DNA from: Sedimenticola sp.
Lineage (GTDB): Bacteria; Pseudomonadota; Gammaproteobacteria; Chromatiales; Chromatiaceae
DNA length: 43,711 nucleotides
Assembly (NCBI GenBank): GCA_026984055.1
Contig: JALSSX010000213.1
Location: forward strand, 1 to 43,711
Direction of reading: 5' to 3'
Part shown: positions 15,635-21,747 of the stretch, piece after piece
How the letters are laid out: every line of letters starts with the position of its first letter
How positions within the stretch are numbered: the first letter of the stretch is position 1
Program-made: the position numbers and the translations under genes
The notes under the pieces: model-generated
Databases searched by the model: none
The model's input: the letters and a program-made list of their open reading frames with translations, nothing else
Told to the model about the DNA's origin: nothing

Positions 15635-17734
15635 ATGGGGTTGTTTCGTTGTCCAACGCGGTGGGGGCTGTTGCTGACGGTTGTGTCGTCTCCCGCGTGG
15701 GCGGGGCTGTTCCCGATTACCGGTGGCTTCAGCGTCGATACCACCGATCGCTTCCAGACGCGGGCGTTCTATCTCAGTCTGTCCAGCGCATCGGAAGATA
15801 CCCCGATGGCGTGGAACGGCAACGTGGCTTCCTGCGCGCCGGGTACCACCAGCGAGGACTACAAGGATGCGGTGATGTTGCGCGTCAATATGTTTCGCGC
15901 GCTGGCCGGCGTTCCGGCAGTGATCGATCATCGCGCCGATTATGATGGCAAGGCGCAGCGGGCGGCGTTGATTATGAGCGCGAATAATACGCTGTCGCAT
16001 ACGCCGCCGAATACCTGGGATTGCTGGTCGGTGGACGGCAATGAGGCGGCGGGCAACTCGAATCTTTCGTTGGGAAACGATGGCTGGCGCGCGGTGTTCA
16101 GTCAGATGCGCGACGATGGCGACAACAATGCCATCGTCGGGCATCGGCGCTGGATCCTTTATCCGCAGACGCGGCGGATGGGCACGGGCGACATCCCGAT
16201 CGATGGCGATTTTCGCGAAACCAACTCCCTATGGGTCATCGACAGCAATTTCGGTGCCGCGCGCCCACCCGTCAGGGATGATTTCGTCGCCTGGCCACCG
16301 CGCGGCTATGTTCCCTATCGCTTGGTGTTCGCGCGTTGGTCGTTCAGCCTCGCGGGCGCGGATTTTTCCGCCGCGAACGTCACGATGTCGCATAATGGCG
16401 TGAATGTGCCATTGAGCGTTGAGGCGCGATCGAATACGCGGGTTGGCGAGCCGACCATCGTCTGGAAGCCCGATGATGGCAATGTGTTACTTGCCGCCGG
16501 CGCAGTCCGACCGGCGGTCGATACGACCTACGATGTGACGATCTCCAATGTATCGATCGACGGTGTCGCTCAGTCGTTCAGCTACCCGGTTACCGTGATC
16601 GATCCGCGGGTTGGAGTCCCGGGCGCGCCACTTCCAGATATCAGCGGGCCGGCCACGGTCAGCGTGGGACGGCCGCAGGCTTATCAGTATGCGCTGGACA
16701 CCGGTCTTGCCGGCTATCAGTTGCGGGTGCTCCAGACCAGCCCCTACGGCGAGGTGGAGGGTGGCGAGGGTGGTGGCGGCAATGTCGTGGACGGCACCTC
16801 CGCTGGCTATGATCTGATTGCCACCGGCAATCCCGGGACGGGTGCGCATGCCTTTCATCTGGCACATCCGGGCGCGGGCGTCGAGTATTTCGAACTCGCG
16901 CCGGATTTCGTCTTGCATGGTGGCAGCCGTCTGCAATTCATCAGTCGGCTCGGTTGGGCGACCCGTGATCAGTTTGCGAAGGTCCAGATCTCGCCGAACG
17001 GTGGCAGCAGTTGGGTGGATGTGTATTCCCTGGCGGGCAATGGCGGTGTCACCGAGGCGGCTTATGGCGCGCATGATCTGGATCTGGGCGCCTGGGCCGA
17101 TCAGGCTGTCCGTATTCGCTTTGCCTATGCGTTCGAGAGTGGCAGCTTTTTTCCGCAGACCGATGCCGATGTCGGTTGGTCGGTGGACGATATCGCCTTG
17201 TTGAATGCCGACAGGGTGACGCAGTCCAGCGTCACGGACCTGGATGACGGCGGCAGCTTCGATTTCGCTCCGGTGACGGTTGGCGATTACGGCTTGCAGG
17301 TCGGGACATCCAGCGTGGATGGCTTTTCGGCTTCGGTATGGGGCGATGTCTTGCCCGTGATGGCGCGGGAAGGGGCGTCGCCCATGCCTTCCGGTTTTGA
17401 TGTCGATGGTAGTGGCGGCCCGCCAGATGCCCTTACCGACGGGATCATCATCATTCGCGCGATGTTCGGTTTCACCGGCGCGGCGCTGGTTCAGGGCGCG
17501 GTGGCTCCGGGTGGGGCGGATGCCGCAGCCATTGCCGAGCATGCGCGGACCTTTGTCGTCGGCTTGGATATCGACGGTGATGGCCGTCAGGATGCGTTGA
17601 CGGATGGCATTTTGCTGATCCGCTACCTGTTTGGCTTTCGCGGTGATGCGCTGGCCGCCGGTGCCGTCAGTCCGGGCGCGTCACGTCGTTCCGGCGCTGA
17701 TGTCGCCGCGTGGATCGCCGGCCTGGGTCTTTGA
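15635..17734 (+). CDS. Secreted CAP-domain (SCP-like) protein with MAM/immune-inhibitor-like module and C-terminal duplicated dockerin-like module
   Basis: Signal peptide MGLFRCPTRWGLLLTVVSSPAWA; CAP-like LRVNMFRALAGVP...LSHTPPNTWDCWSVDGNEAAGNSNL...NAIVGHRRWILYP. C-terminus (17396-17731) FDVDGSGGPPDALTDGIIIIRAMFGFTG...LDIDGDGRQDALTDGILLIRYLFGFRG. Confidence 0.8.
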   Translation: MGLFRCPTRWGLLLTVVSSPAWAGLFPITGGFSVDTTDRFQTRAFYLSLSSASEDTPMAWNGNVASCAPGTTSEDYKDAVMLRVNMFRALAGVPAVIDHRADYDGKAQRAALIMSANNTLSHTPPNTWDCWSVDGNEAAGNSNLSLGNDGWRAVFSQMRDDGDNNAIVGHRRWILYPQTRRMGTGDIPIDGDFRETNSLWVIDSNFGAARPPVRDDFVAWPPRGYVPYRLVFARWSFSLAGADFSAANVTMSHNGVNVPLSVEARSNTRVGEPTIVWKPDDGNVLLAAGAVRPAVDTTYDVTISNVSIDGVAQSFSYPVTVIDPRVGVPGAPLPDISGPATVSVGRPQAYQYALDTGLAGYQLRVLQTSPYGEVEGGEGGGGNVVDGTSAGYDLIATGNPGTGAHAFHLAHPGAGVEYFELAPDFVLHGGSRLQFISRLGWATRDQFAKVQISPNGGSSWVDVYSLAGNGGVTEAAYGAHDLDLGAWADQAVRIRFAYAFESGSFFPQTDADVGWSVDDIALLNADRVTQSSVTDLDDGGSFDFAPVTVGDYGLQVGTSSVDGFSASVWGDVLPVMAREGASPMPSGFDVDGSGGPPDALTDGIIIIRAMFGFTGAALVQGAVAPGGADAAAIAEHARTFVVGLDIDGDGRQDALTDGILLIRYLFGFRGDALAAGAVSPGASRRSGADVAAWIAGLGL

Positions 17735-17865
17735 TCCAAAGCGCTTACTGTTTCTCATTTTCGGCCTGGGCTGTGGTTGGCGCGCCAGATCCGATATAAT
17801 CCGCTCGATAACTTTACGATAGCGACAACGGCGTCGGATGCTTCAGGACGCCTCGGGATTTTGGC

Positions 17866-20418
17866 ATGATCAAGAGAATTTTTATTTCACTCGCGGCCCT
17901 GGCTCTGCTCGGCGTGGCCAATGCGGAGGTTTTCTACAACCAAGTGTGGCGGCAAACGGCCGATGCCGATTATGTCGGACGTACCAACGATGTCGGCGTG
18001 GCGGATCTCAATGGAGATGGTCGGGACGATGTCTGGCTGGTCGACCCCAACGGACCGAGCCGAGTCTGGTTGCAAAACGCCAGCGGCGTGCTCGAGGATT
18101 CTGGCCAGGCGATCGGTGCGGCGGGTACCAACGCCGTGGTGCTTGGCGACCTCGACGGCGATGGCGATATCGATGCGGTCGAGGCCGTTTCGGGATCGGA
18201 CAACAAAGTTTGGCTGAACAACGGTAGTGGCGTTTTTAGCGATGCGGGTCAGTCGACCGGAGATTCAAGCTTTTCCTTTGGTCTGGCGATGGGTGATCTC
18301 GATGGCGACGGCGATCTCGATCTTTTTGTCGCGAATACCGGCGCGCCGAATACCGTGTGGTCCAACGATGGCTCGGGTGTCTTTACGGATACGGGGCAGA
18401 CGCTGGGCGGCAATGCGCTCAGCTCGGGCGTTGCCCTGGGCGATCTCAATGGCGATGGGCGTCTCGATGCGGTAGTCGCGAATGCGGGCGCGAATAGCGT
18501 TTGGATCAACGATGGCCATGGTGTGTTCAGCGCCGGCACCACGCCGGCCACCGGTAACGCTTCGACGACCAAGACCGTTGTGCTCGCGGATTTCGATGGT
18601 GATAGCAAGCTCGACGCCTTCTTCGGCGAGGTCAATGGCAATCACGTTTGGAAGGGCGATGGCGCGGGCGGATTCAGTGATACGGGATTGGTGCTCGGCA
18701 CGGCTTCCAGCCAGGATCTGGTCGTCCAGGACATGAACGGAGACGGTAAGCCGGATGTCTATGTGGCTAATGATTTCACCAATGGCGCGGATAAGGCGTG
18801 GCTGAATACGAGTACGTCGAGCGCGATCAGTTTCACCGTTGCGGGCCTGAACTTCGGCGTTTCGTACAGCTCGTCTGCGGCCTTGGGCGATTTCGACAAT
18901 GATGGCCGGAAAGACGATATCTTTGTCGGCGCGGGCGCGACGCGCACCCAGCCTGACCATATTTGGTTGAATCAAAACGACATCGGTAACTTTGTCGCCG
19001 GGCAGACGCTGGTTACGGCGGTTCTGAGTAACGCGGTGGCCCTCGGTGATCTCGATGGTGATGGCGATTTCGACGCCTTCGTCGCGAACAGCGGCGCGAA
19101 TGCCGTGTTGCTGAATAATTCCGGCATGCAATTCCAGCTTGTCCAGTCGCTCGCCAATGAGGATTCTCAAGGCGTGGCTCTGGACGATTTCGATCAGGAT
19201 GGCGATCTGGATGCCGTCGTCGCGAATGGTAGCGGCGGGCCCAATCGGATCTGGTTGAACGACGGCGCCGGACATTTCACGGATAGCGGCATCGTGCTCG
19301 GTAGTGGTGGAACAAGCCAGAGTTTGGACGTTGTCGCCGCCAATTTGGATGGCGATGTCTGTCCAGATGTGGTTATCGCAAATTTTGGTTTTCCCGATCA
19401 GGTTTGGTTGAATGTTTTCGACAACAATAGAGTTGATTTTATCGATCGACCGATACCATGCCAGTTCAATGCCGCGCCACAAACGCTTTCGTTCGGCAAC
19501 AATCAGAGTGCCGCGGTCGTCTTTGCCGATATCAATAGCGATGGTCTATTGGATGTCTTGTTCACCGGGATACGCGGAGCCAGCACGCCCAGTGGGGAGA
19601 TTCGCGCCTGGACCAACGATCCGTTGAATCATGGCCATTTCCTCCAAGGTAGTTTTTTGAGCAATCCCAGCGGCAATGTACGCAAGGTAGTGCTGGGCGA
19701 GCTGACCGGAGATGGCAATCTCGACGCCTTTGGTGTGACCTCCGGTAGCAATCTGCTTTGGCAGGGGGATGGTCATGGTGGTTTCTCGTCATCCACTGGT
19801 GTTGGCATCGTATCGGATGGCTGGGATGCCGCCATCGGTGATATCGATACGGCCGGTGGCGACGATATCTTCGTGGTCAGCGATAGCGGCACGAACAAGG
19901 TGTTGTATAACGACGGAACAGGGAATTTCACCGACAGCAATATCGCGCTGCCCGCAGTCAAGGGTAGGGCGGTCGGCTTCGCCGATCTGGACGGTGATCA
20001 AGATCTGGATGCCTTTATTGCCGCGAATGGTTTGAATGTCGCGTTGCGACACGATCCCTTTGCGGGCGGCGCCCAGGGCTTCGATGTCGATGGCAACGGT
20101 GCTGTCGATGCGTTGACCGATGGCATCATCATCATCCGTTATATGTTTGGTATTCGTGGTGCGGCATTGATTCAAAGCGCGATTGCGCCGGATGCGACAG
20201 CCGATGGTCCGGAAATCGAGACGCATATGGTGGGGCTGAACCCGACGTTGGACGCCGATGGCAACGGTGCGGTAGACGCTTTGACCGATGGCATCATCAT
20301 TATTCGTTATATATTTGGTTTTCGCGGTTCGGCGCTGATCCAGGGCGCGCTTGCGCCCAATGCAACGAATACCACCTCCGCGCTGGTCGAAGCCTGGGCG
20401 GCAGGGGTTGGTCTCTGA
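17866..20418 (+). CDS. Secreted FG-GAP/VCBS-repeat beta-propeller protein with C-terminal duplicated dockerin-like module
   Basis: Signal peptide MIKRIFISLAALALLGVANA; many repeats of GDLDGDGDxDAxVAN...VWLNDGSGVFxDxGQ. C-terminus (20080-20415) FDVDGNGAVDALTDGIIIIRYMFGIRG...LDADGNGAVDALTDGIIIIRYIFGFRG. Confidence 0.88.
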   Translation: MIKRIFISLAALALLGVANAEVFYNQVWRQTADADYVGRTNDVGVADLNGDGRDDVWLVDPNGPSRVWLQNASGVLEDSGQAIGAAGTNAVVLGDLDGDGDIDAVEAVSGSDNKVWLNNGSGVFSDAGQSTGDSSFSFGLAMGDLDGDGDLDLFVANTGAPNTVWSNDGSGVFTDTGQTLGGNALSSGVALGDLNGDGRLDAVVANAGANSVWINDGHGVFSAGTTPATGNASTTKTVVLADFDGDSKLDAFFGEVNGNHVWKGDGAGGFSDTGLVLGTASSQDLVVQDMNGDGKPDVYVANDFTNGADKAWLNTSTSSAISFTVAGLNFGVSYSSSAALGDFDNDGRKDDIFVGAGATRTQPDHIWLNQNDIGNFVAGQTLVTAVLSNAVALGDLDGDGDFDAFVANSGANAVLLNNSGMQFQLVQSLANEDSQGVALDDFDQDGDLDAVVANGSGGPNRIWLNDGAGHFTDSGIVLGSGGTSQSLDVVAANLDGDVCPDVVIANFGFPDQVWLNVFDNNRVDFIDRPIPCQFNAAPQTLSFGNNQSAAVVFADINSDGLLDVLFTGIRGASTPSGEIRAWTNDPLNHGHFLQGSFLSNPSGNVRKVVLGELTGDGNLDAFGVTSGSNLLWQGDGHGGFSSSTGVGIVSDGWDAAIGDIDTAGGDDIFVVSDSGTNKVLYNDGTGNFTDSNIALPAVKGRAVGFADLDGDQDLDAFIAANGLNVALRHDPFAGGAQGFDVDGNGAVDALTDGIIIIRYMFGIRGAALIQSAIAPDATADGPEIETHMVGLNPTLDADGNGAVDALTDGIIIIRYIFGFRGSALIQGALAPNATNTTSALVEAWAAGVGL

Positions 20419-20689
20419 CAGAACATGCGTGTTGCATATCTGCAACTCATATGTGTGAAAGGAGACACTTTTTTTGCATCTTGGGCGGATGACTGTTGTA
20501 TTATTGCGATCCATGGTTCATAATTCTGACGTTGGTATCATAAATCCCGTCATGATGGATGGGTAAGTTACCGCGAAAATTGCACTTTTTTGATCATGTC
20601 GGGTAATGAACCGATTTGTTGGTTTGTTGCCATTCTGGCATGCTCTCTTGGGTTTTCGTACTTGGTTTGGGAATATAGGAAGGGTAGAT

Positions 20690-21688
20690 ATGAAATTTTT
20701 ACGTGTAATTGGGGCTGCGCTATTGCTGGCCTCCTCGGGCGCCTACGCGGCGGAGCAGGTAGTGACCTCCACGCCCGCGTCGCAGGTTGCCGCGCCTTCG
20801 ACGGCAGTGTCTTTCAACGCTGTATACACGTCGCAAAACCCCCAGGATGAAACGACCAGCGGTCTGGGGCTGCGCATCCACTATGATTCATCACAGTTGA
20901 CTTTCGTCAGTGTGACCAACATTTTTGCGAGCGGCGCTCAGCCTGTTTCCGAACAGGCCGATGCGGGTAATGAAGATGGGGACGCGGCGACCGACCGCGT
21001 GGTCCTGATTTCGTGGATCGATGTTGGCGCCAACTGGCCGGGCGATGGTAACGAGCCGGTAAGTCCGTTGTTTACCGCCAACTTTACTACTACCGCGGCT
21101 TTTGCGGGTACCACGTTGAACTATTCCGCGAGTTCTACCGCCGCGGGTTACACGCTGCAAGCCGCTCCGGTCCAGATTGGTCTGGCGACCACGGTACCCG
21201 ATGTCGTTGGTCAGACCCAGGCTAATGCCACTGCGGCCATCACTGGCGCGGGCTTGGCTGTTGGCGCGGTGACCACTCAAGGCAGTGCCGTGGTTGCGGC
21301 GGGTAGCGTGATTAGCCAGTCTCCGGCGGCCGGTGCTTCCGTCGCGGGTGGCAGCAACGTCGATCTGGTGGTTTCCAGCGGTCCGATCGTGGTTCCGGAT
21401 GTCGTGGGTAATTCCCAAGCGGCCGCTACTGCTACCTTGACTGCGGCGGGCTTGAATGTGACGACGACATCGGTACCCAGTGAGGCGCCGGTTGGTACCG
21501 TGGTAAGTCAGAATCCCGCTGCTGGCTCCAACGCCAGTGCTGGCGATACCGTGGCCTTGGCCATCGCGGCGCCGGCCGGCGCTGGTGGCAGCGCCACTGG
21601 CGTTCCGACTCTGTCCGAATGGGCACTTGTCCTGCTGGCCATGCTGGTTGGCCTGGTTGCCTGGGTGAGGCACAATAAGGAAGCCTGA
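20690..21688 (+). CDS. Exported protein: cohesin-like N-domain, two PASTA repeats, IPTL-CTERM-like sorting tail
   Basis: Signal peptide MKFLRVIGAALLLASSGAYA; TSGLGLRIHYDSSQLTFVSVT...DRVVLISWIDVGANWPG...LFTANFTTTAAFAGTTLNYSASS. PASTA VPDVVGQTQANATAAITGAGL and VPDVVGNSQAAATATLTAAGL. Tail GVPTLSEWALVLLAMLVGLVAWVRHNKEA. Confidence 0.8.
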   Translation: MKFLRVIGAALLLASSGAYAAEQVVTSTPASQVAAPSTAVSFNAVYTSQNPQDETTSGLGLRIHYDSSQLTFVSVTNIFASGAQPVSEQADAGNEDGDAATDRVVLISWIDVGANWPGDGNEPVSPLFTANFTTTAAFAGTTLNYSASSTAAGYTLQAAPVQIGLATTVPDVVGQTQANATAAITGAGLAVGAVTTQGSAVVAAGSVISQSPAAGASVAGGSNVDLVVSSGPIVVPDVVGNSQAAATATLTAAGLNVTTTSVPSEAPVGTVVSQNPAAGSNASAGDTVALAIAAPAGAGGSATGVPTLSEWALVLLAMLVGLVAWVRHNKEA

Positions 21689-21715: not shown

Positions 21716-21747
21716 GCCCCGCTTCCTGATGGAGGCGGGGCTTTTTT
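21716..21747 (+). terminator. Rho-independent terminator after the cohesin-like gene
   Basis: GGCCCCGCTTCC-TGAT-GGAGGCGGGGC followed by TTTTTT. Confidence 0.88.

Follow-up and report, generated by a model that had tools for sequence, protein, structure and literature searches.

The window, that is the whole stretch of DNA analysed here, is contig C213 (43.7 kb; 43,711 nucleotides) of a gammaproteobacterial Sedimenticola MAG, G000. Three consecutive genes lie on its + strand across positions 15635 to 21688, and each of the products (P0001 to P0003) begins with a signal peptide, as judged by eye. The ORF listed for P0003 opens at 20606, while its signal peptide starts downstream, at 20690. A preliminary description of this region had proposed that P0001 and P0002 are dockerin-like clients of P0003, a cohesin-like surface anchor, in a self-contained complex. 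The features are as follows.

15635 to 17734, + strand: P0001 (699 aa), client 1, with a signal peptide, a CAP domain, a central jelly-roll-like region and a C-terminal dockerin-like module
15881 to 16192, + strand: CAP domain of P0001, residues 83-186 (PF00188, E=1.8e-6)
17387 to 17731, + strand: dockerin-like two-unit module of P0001 (59% identity to the P0002 module; module profile A4, E about 1e-40)
17866 to 20418, + strand: P0002 (850 aa), client 2, with a signal peptide, an FG-GAP beta-propeller and a C-terminal dockerin-like module
20071 to 20415, + strand: dockerin-like two-unit module of P0002 (PF00404, 23.4 bits against a cut-off of 22.9; AF2 pLDDT 96.7)
20690 to 21688, + strand: P0003 (332 aa), the putative anchor, in which a cohesin-like domain, two PASTA repeats and an IPTL-CTERM tail follow the signal peptide
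20753 to 21187, + strand: cohesin-like domain of P0003, about 145 residues (AF2 pLDDT 85.8; first 15 Foldseek matches all cohesins, prob 1.00)
21191 to 21580, + strand: two PASTA repeats of P0003 (PF03793, E=1.8e-28, in two stretches), the boundary of the second being approximate
21596 to 21670, + strand: IPTL-CTERM sorting tail of P0003, a presumed XrtH substrate (PF18203 and TIGR04174 over cut-off)
21716 to 21747, + strand: terminator-like hairpin followed by six T (GCCCCGC-12 nt-GCGGGGC-T6)

Most of this layout agrees with the preliminary description. Pfam recovered the FG-GAP propeller of P0002 (2e-76) as well as the two PASTA repeats (2e-28) and the IPTL-CTERM tail (6e-9) of P0003, and the two clients have no hydrophobic C-terminal tail that could serve as a membrane anchor. 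Of the CAP/MAM assignment made for P0001, the CAP domain stands, while a MAM domain in the middle of the protein found no support in Pfam or NCBIfam. The hairpin said to close the block is present; terminator-like sites were not enriched over shuffles, though this one was flagged. Among the viral contigs searched, a PASTA match was the only one returned.

Two simple views of the locus were rejected. It is not a conserved three-gene operon: in the congener G043 the propeller and anchor genes remain neighbours, but the CAP gene is found by itself on a separate contig, upstream of a rhodanese-like gene. The term self-contained was thus too strong. A P0001 orthologue with the module occurs in two other Sedimenticola MAGs. 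Nor is it a cellulosome, as P0003 bears a single cohesin and its clients carry CAP and FG-GAP domains, without a hydrolase or a CBM.

The C-terminal modules shared by P0001 and P0002 are 115 aa each, 59% identical to one another, and finish in matching ends (AAWIAGLGL and EAWAAGVGL). Each contains two units of the consensus DxDGNGxxxALTDGILIIRYLxGFxG followed by a second helix, the first loop of P0001 being one residue longer. In an alignment of 26 relatives, the loop residues D1, D3, N/D5 and D13 are kept in both units, R19 is found in 26/26, again in both units, and T12 in 20/26. The module thus has two tandem DxDxDG...D loop-helix segments, predicted from sequence to bind Ca, with one extra loop residue. 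When its D13 is aligned with D12 of type I dockerins, T12 and R19 fall on positions 11 and 18, which are recognition sites in those dockerins.

Pfam and NCBIfam searches with the whole proteins P0001 to P0003 returned neither cohesin nor dockerin, and the sequence signal for both emerged only from isolated domains and their relatives. Pfam Dockerin_1 (PF00404) recognizes the P0002 module (23.4 bits, cut-off 22.9) and 13/26 relatives, whereas the P0001 module alone falls below detection. The best PDB sequence match of the module profile is weak (E=0.007, with calmodulins close behind), and is to the dockerin (chain B) of 1ohz, a cohesin complex of known structure. The fold is a different matter. 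The AF2 model of the 115-aa P0002 module has six helices (pLDDT 96.7) rather than the three-helix, 60-70 residue fold of dockerins, and its comparison with PDB folds gave no match at E<1 and no dockerin. The module is dockerin-like by its motif and duplication and is not a standard dockerin by fold, so that the earlier assignment holds for the sequence and fails for the structure, which is enlarged.

Between G000 and the Sedimenticola MAG S144, dN/dS was 0.05 and 0.075 for the two modules, 0.106 for the cohesin, and 0.09 and 0.18 for the remaining parts of the two clients. Purifying selection on the modules is strong, and they are more constrained than their payloads. Because of this selection, and because the module recurs in unrelated phyla, its pattern is not due to chance. 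A family-level search showed a sporadic distribution, not a family trait.

The N-terminal domain of P0003 was modelled by AF2 from a natural alignment of 10 rows (pLDDT 85.8, pTM 0.82). The model is a jelly-roll beta-sandwich resembling solved cohesins, and the first 15 Foldseek matches in the PDB were all cohesins with prob 1.00 (4ums, 5e-6; 1aoh_A, TM 0.66). The Pfam Cohesin family (PF00963) did not match P0003, either whole or as an isolated domain. It matched 2/10 relatives of the domain, at 5.6e-5 (23.8 bits, cut-off 24.1) and at 0.0076, the latter being the congener's gene orthologous to P0003. No meaningful match came from searching PDB sequences with single sequences or the cohesin profile. 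We regard the cohesin fold foreseen for this domain as established at the level of structure prediction.

The tail of P0003 scored 28.4 bits with TIGR04174 (cut-off 20.5) and also exceeded the PF18203 cut-off. Since the genome in addition encodes the exosortase XrtH, P0003 has both marks of an IPTL-CTERM/XrtH substrate. XrtH was detected above cut-off in G000, G043, G124 and G430; it was not found in S144. In G000 it lies on contig C113 (193 bits, cut-off 86). This locus (L130, 2485-3732), in which a second membrane protein follows XrtH, sits between recX/alaS and recA and is far from any IPTL-CTERM gene. An HMM search of G000 found no IPTL-CTERM tail besides that of P0003, and in S144 it found two, those of its two cohesin proteins. 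As the Sedimenticola substrates detected are cohesin anchors only, this suggests that XrtH in Sedimenticola mainly serves cohesin anchors, with the reservation that a 27-position model may miss weak substrates. The second cohesin anchor of S144 (L107, 4082-5479) combines three PASTA repeats with an IPTL-CTERM tail, and no counterpart of it was found in G000.

Elsewhere, an IPTL-CTERM tail is carried by the cohesin protein of G124 and a JDVT-CTERM tail by those of Porticoccaceae. The cohesin proteins of G428 and G043 have their tails cut by contig ends, and none of the clients examined has a sorting tail. The cohesin protein of G430 (L034, 7287-8573) lacks a sorting tail and ends in another Ca-repeat-like segment (GDANNDSK...DLNMDGK...GNDVNIL); it may be an adaptor.

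The preliminary description had also anticipated that module and anchor would occur together in other genomes, which is what was found. When 84,980 species genomes were scanned with the module, and not the cohesin, as query, 21 loci came up, and at several of them a P0003-type cohesin lay in flanking sequence or in one ORF with the module. In whole-genome searches, such a cohesin was present in 12/15 module-bearing genomes, and the two genes are neighbours in unrelated genomes. Among 370 genomes of the class Gammaproteobacteria, the module was found in 3, the cohesin in 4 and both in 3; among 392 Planctomycetota genomes the numbers were 4, 4 and 3. Fisher tests without the seed genomes gave p values of 4.4e-5 and 1.2e-4, respectively, which are indicative, as kinship was ignored and the first-look filter scores a portion of the candidates rather than all. 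Although each domain occurs in only about 1% of the genomes sampled, their overlap is far beyond chance.

The cohesin:module ratio is 1:2 in G000, plus one module fragment, 1:6 in each of two Porticoccaceae, 2:10 in Phycisphaera, and 1:1 in G124, G279 and G430. The G000 fragment (contig C298, L013, 201-679) is a broken third module, frameshifted or stopped, near a contig end.

The arrangement of the two domains varies. The cohesin gene adjoins a module gene in three MAGs of Sedimenticola and, outside it, in G124, G428 and G430, where the neighbouring client is a trypsin-like protein (G124), a beta-helix protein (G428) or, by eye, a protein similar to the G124 protease (G430). In Hormoscilla (cyanobacteria), Phycisphaera (Planctomycetota) and a Verrucomicrobia MAG, the cohesin is fused directly before the module. 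Domains that are separate neighbours in some genomes and parts of one chain in others are a classical sign of physical partnership, so a partnership of this cohesin with the module is suggested. The clients of other genomes carry M64 peptidase, GH16, DUF1800, phosphoesterase, reprolysin and cyclophilin domains, and the payload is therefore exchangeable.

The fusions could also be read in another way. In Hormoscilla, 47/50 cohesin-like domains have a module downstream on the same strand, after a gap of 7-73 nt, so that a beta-sandwich directly precedes the module as in the X-dockerins of type II or III. The cohesin-like domain might then be a structural companion of the module, the pair forming one C-terminal unit for another partner, with the genes split in Sedimenticola; the fusions in Phycisphaera and Verrucomicrobia fit this as well. 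Such near-constant pairing in one chain counts against display by docking, as docking in trans does not need it. However, the sandwich is a cohesin by fold, its best structural matches being cohesins and not X-modules, and in Sedimenticola it is borne by a separate anchor protein. The other Gammaproteobacteria and G428 likewise have separate proteins, the cohesin often with its own sorting tail, and Porticoccaceae have one cohesin per six modules. We consider the companion role unlikely and favour docking of the modules on a separate cohesin anchor.

That docking would involve P0003 can itself be questioned, as G000 holds another cohesin together with a canonical dockerin. On contig C261 (L133, 5497-8090, - strand) a gene for a protein ending in Dockerin_1 (4.3e-7) is separated by 11 nt from the next gene, which encodes a 229-aa cohesin with a signal peptide (PF00963, 5e-4). 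By eye this cohesin has a PEP-CTERM-like tail, for which there was no NCBIfam match. The pair shows that the anchor-client architecture is present twice in G000. The modules of P0001 and P0002 could therefore bind a target other than P0003, such as the C261 cohesin, a receptor in the outer membrane or a secretion machine, and P0003 an unrelated partner of its own.

The Burkholderiales genome G431 (L036, L108, L109) points the same way, with 59 modules on diverse secreted proteins and no cohesin detectable with either profile. It follows from this genome that the module can exist without a P0003-type partner or with an unseen one; the partner of the G431 modules can be absent, of another kind or unseen, perhaps a different cohesin clade. 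Against another target in Sedimenticola, the C261 cohesin has a dockerin protein of its own, encoded 11 nt away, and several unrelated genomes contain both the module and the P0003-type cohesin, placed together. Binding of the modules elsewhere is also improbable. It is most improbable that the modules are EF-hand-like stabilising caps and the P0003 domain a carbohydrate- or matrix-binding sandwich in a neighbourhood common to surface proteins, for although cohesins and carbohydrate-binding modules have the same jelly-roll fold and the module matches no dockerin fold, the two domains are rare, overlap far beyond chance and have been fused repeatedly.

Taken together, the cohesin fold, the motif conservation, the co-occurrence, adjacency and fusion of the two domains, and the sorting tail with XrtH indicate that the locus is probably a small non-cellulosomal cohesin-dockerin display system with Ca-dependent docking at the cell surface. 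The CAP and propeller proteins would be secreted without an anchor of their own, each with a duplicated, predicted Ca-binding module at its C-terminus. P0003 would also be secreted, its IPTL-CTERM tail being handled by XrtH, and would stand off on its PASTA repeats to offer one cohesin at the N-terminal end. A module would dock on this cohesin in a presumably Ca-dependent manner, holding either client at what is likely the cell surface, where both would compete for a single socket. Their role there may be in adhesion or in the biofilm matrix, which is a guess. We conclude that this is a non-cellulosomal cohesin-dockerin pairing used as a surface anchor with interchangeable clients, its binding being presumed.

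Like the type I pair of C. thermocellum (1aoh, 1ohz), the Sedimenticola proteins have a cohesin fold, a duplicated DxDxDG segment that leads into a helix, and a conserved Arg aligned with recognition residue 18. They differ from it in the length of the module (115 aa against about 65), in loops of 13 instead of 12 residues, in the extra helices, in the single-cohesin anchor, and in having no glycoside hydrolases or CBM.

PMC5244752 and PMC9012536, which cite Peer 2009, describe cohesin and dockerin modules outside cellulosomes. They have been noted in ANME archaea (PMC9012536, PMC5244752) and in Saccharophagus degradans (PMC2386152), and their role is stated to be unknown or untested (PMC5244752, PMC9012536, PMC2386152). 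The present set resembles these in having cohesin and dockerin without a cellulosome, surface or secreted payloads and an unproven role. Unlike them, it has a defined anchor, which is sorting-tailed, and clients with an enlarged module; the cohesin belongs to a clade matching that module, and their co-occurrence holds statistically across phyla. A literature search in a limited collection returned no paper on PEP-CTERM with cohesin, exosortase XrtH, or Hormoscilla with dockerin.

Although non-cellulosomal cohesins and dockerins have been catalogued since 2009, no role has been established for them. The locus provides a minimal set (a single socket, two plugs, a sorting tail and an exosortase that is likely dedicated) in which a role is directly testable. 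If docking is real, unrelated secreted proteins of Gram-negative bacteria can share a single sorted anchor, and a dockerin type of new size and loop length would be at hand, possibly as an orthogonal protein-coupling pair. A wider proposal is conceivable, although we stop just short of favouring it: a previously unrecognised cohesin-dockerin class of several phyla, unrelated to cellulose use, might form a general surface-display platform of a one-cohesin sorting-tailed protein with interchangeable enlarged-dockerin clients. Under this proposal Hormoscilla would be self-complementary at about 47 same-chain places and could build a polymeric sheath. One Hormoscilla protein (G426; L113, 3933-6902, the other loci being L111 and L112) bears two cohesins but lacks the module, and may act as a scaffold.
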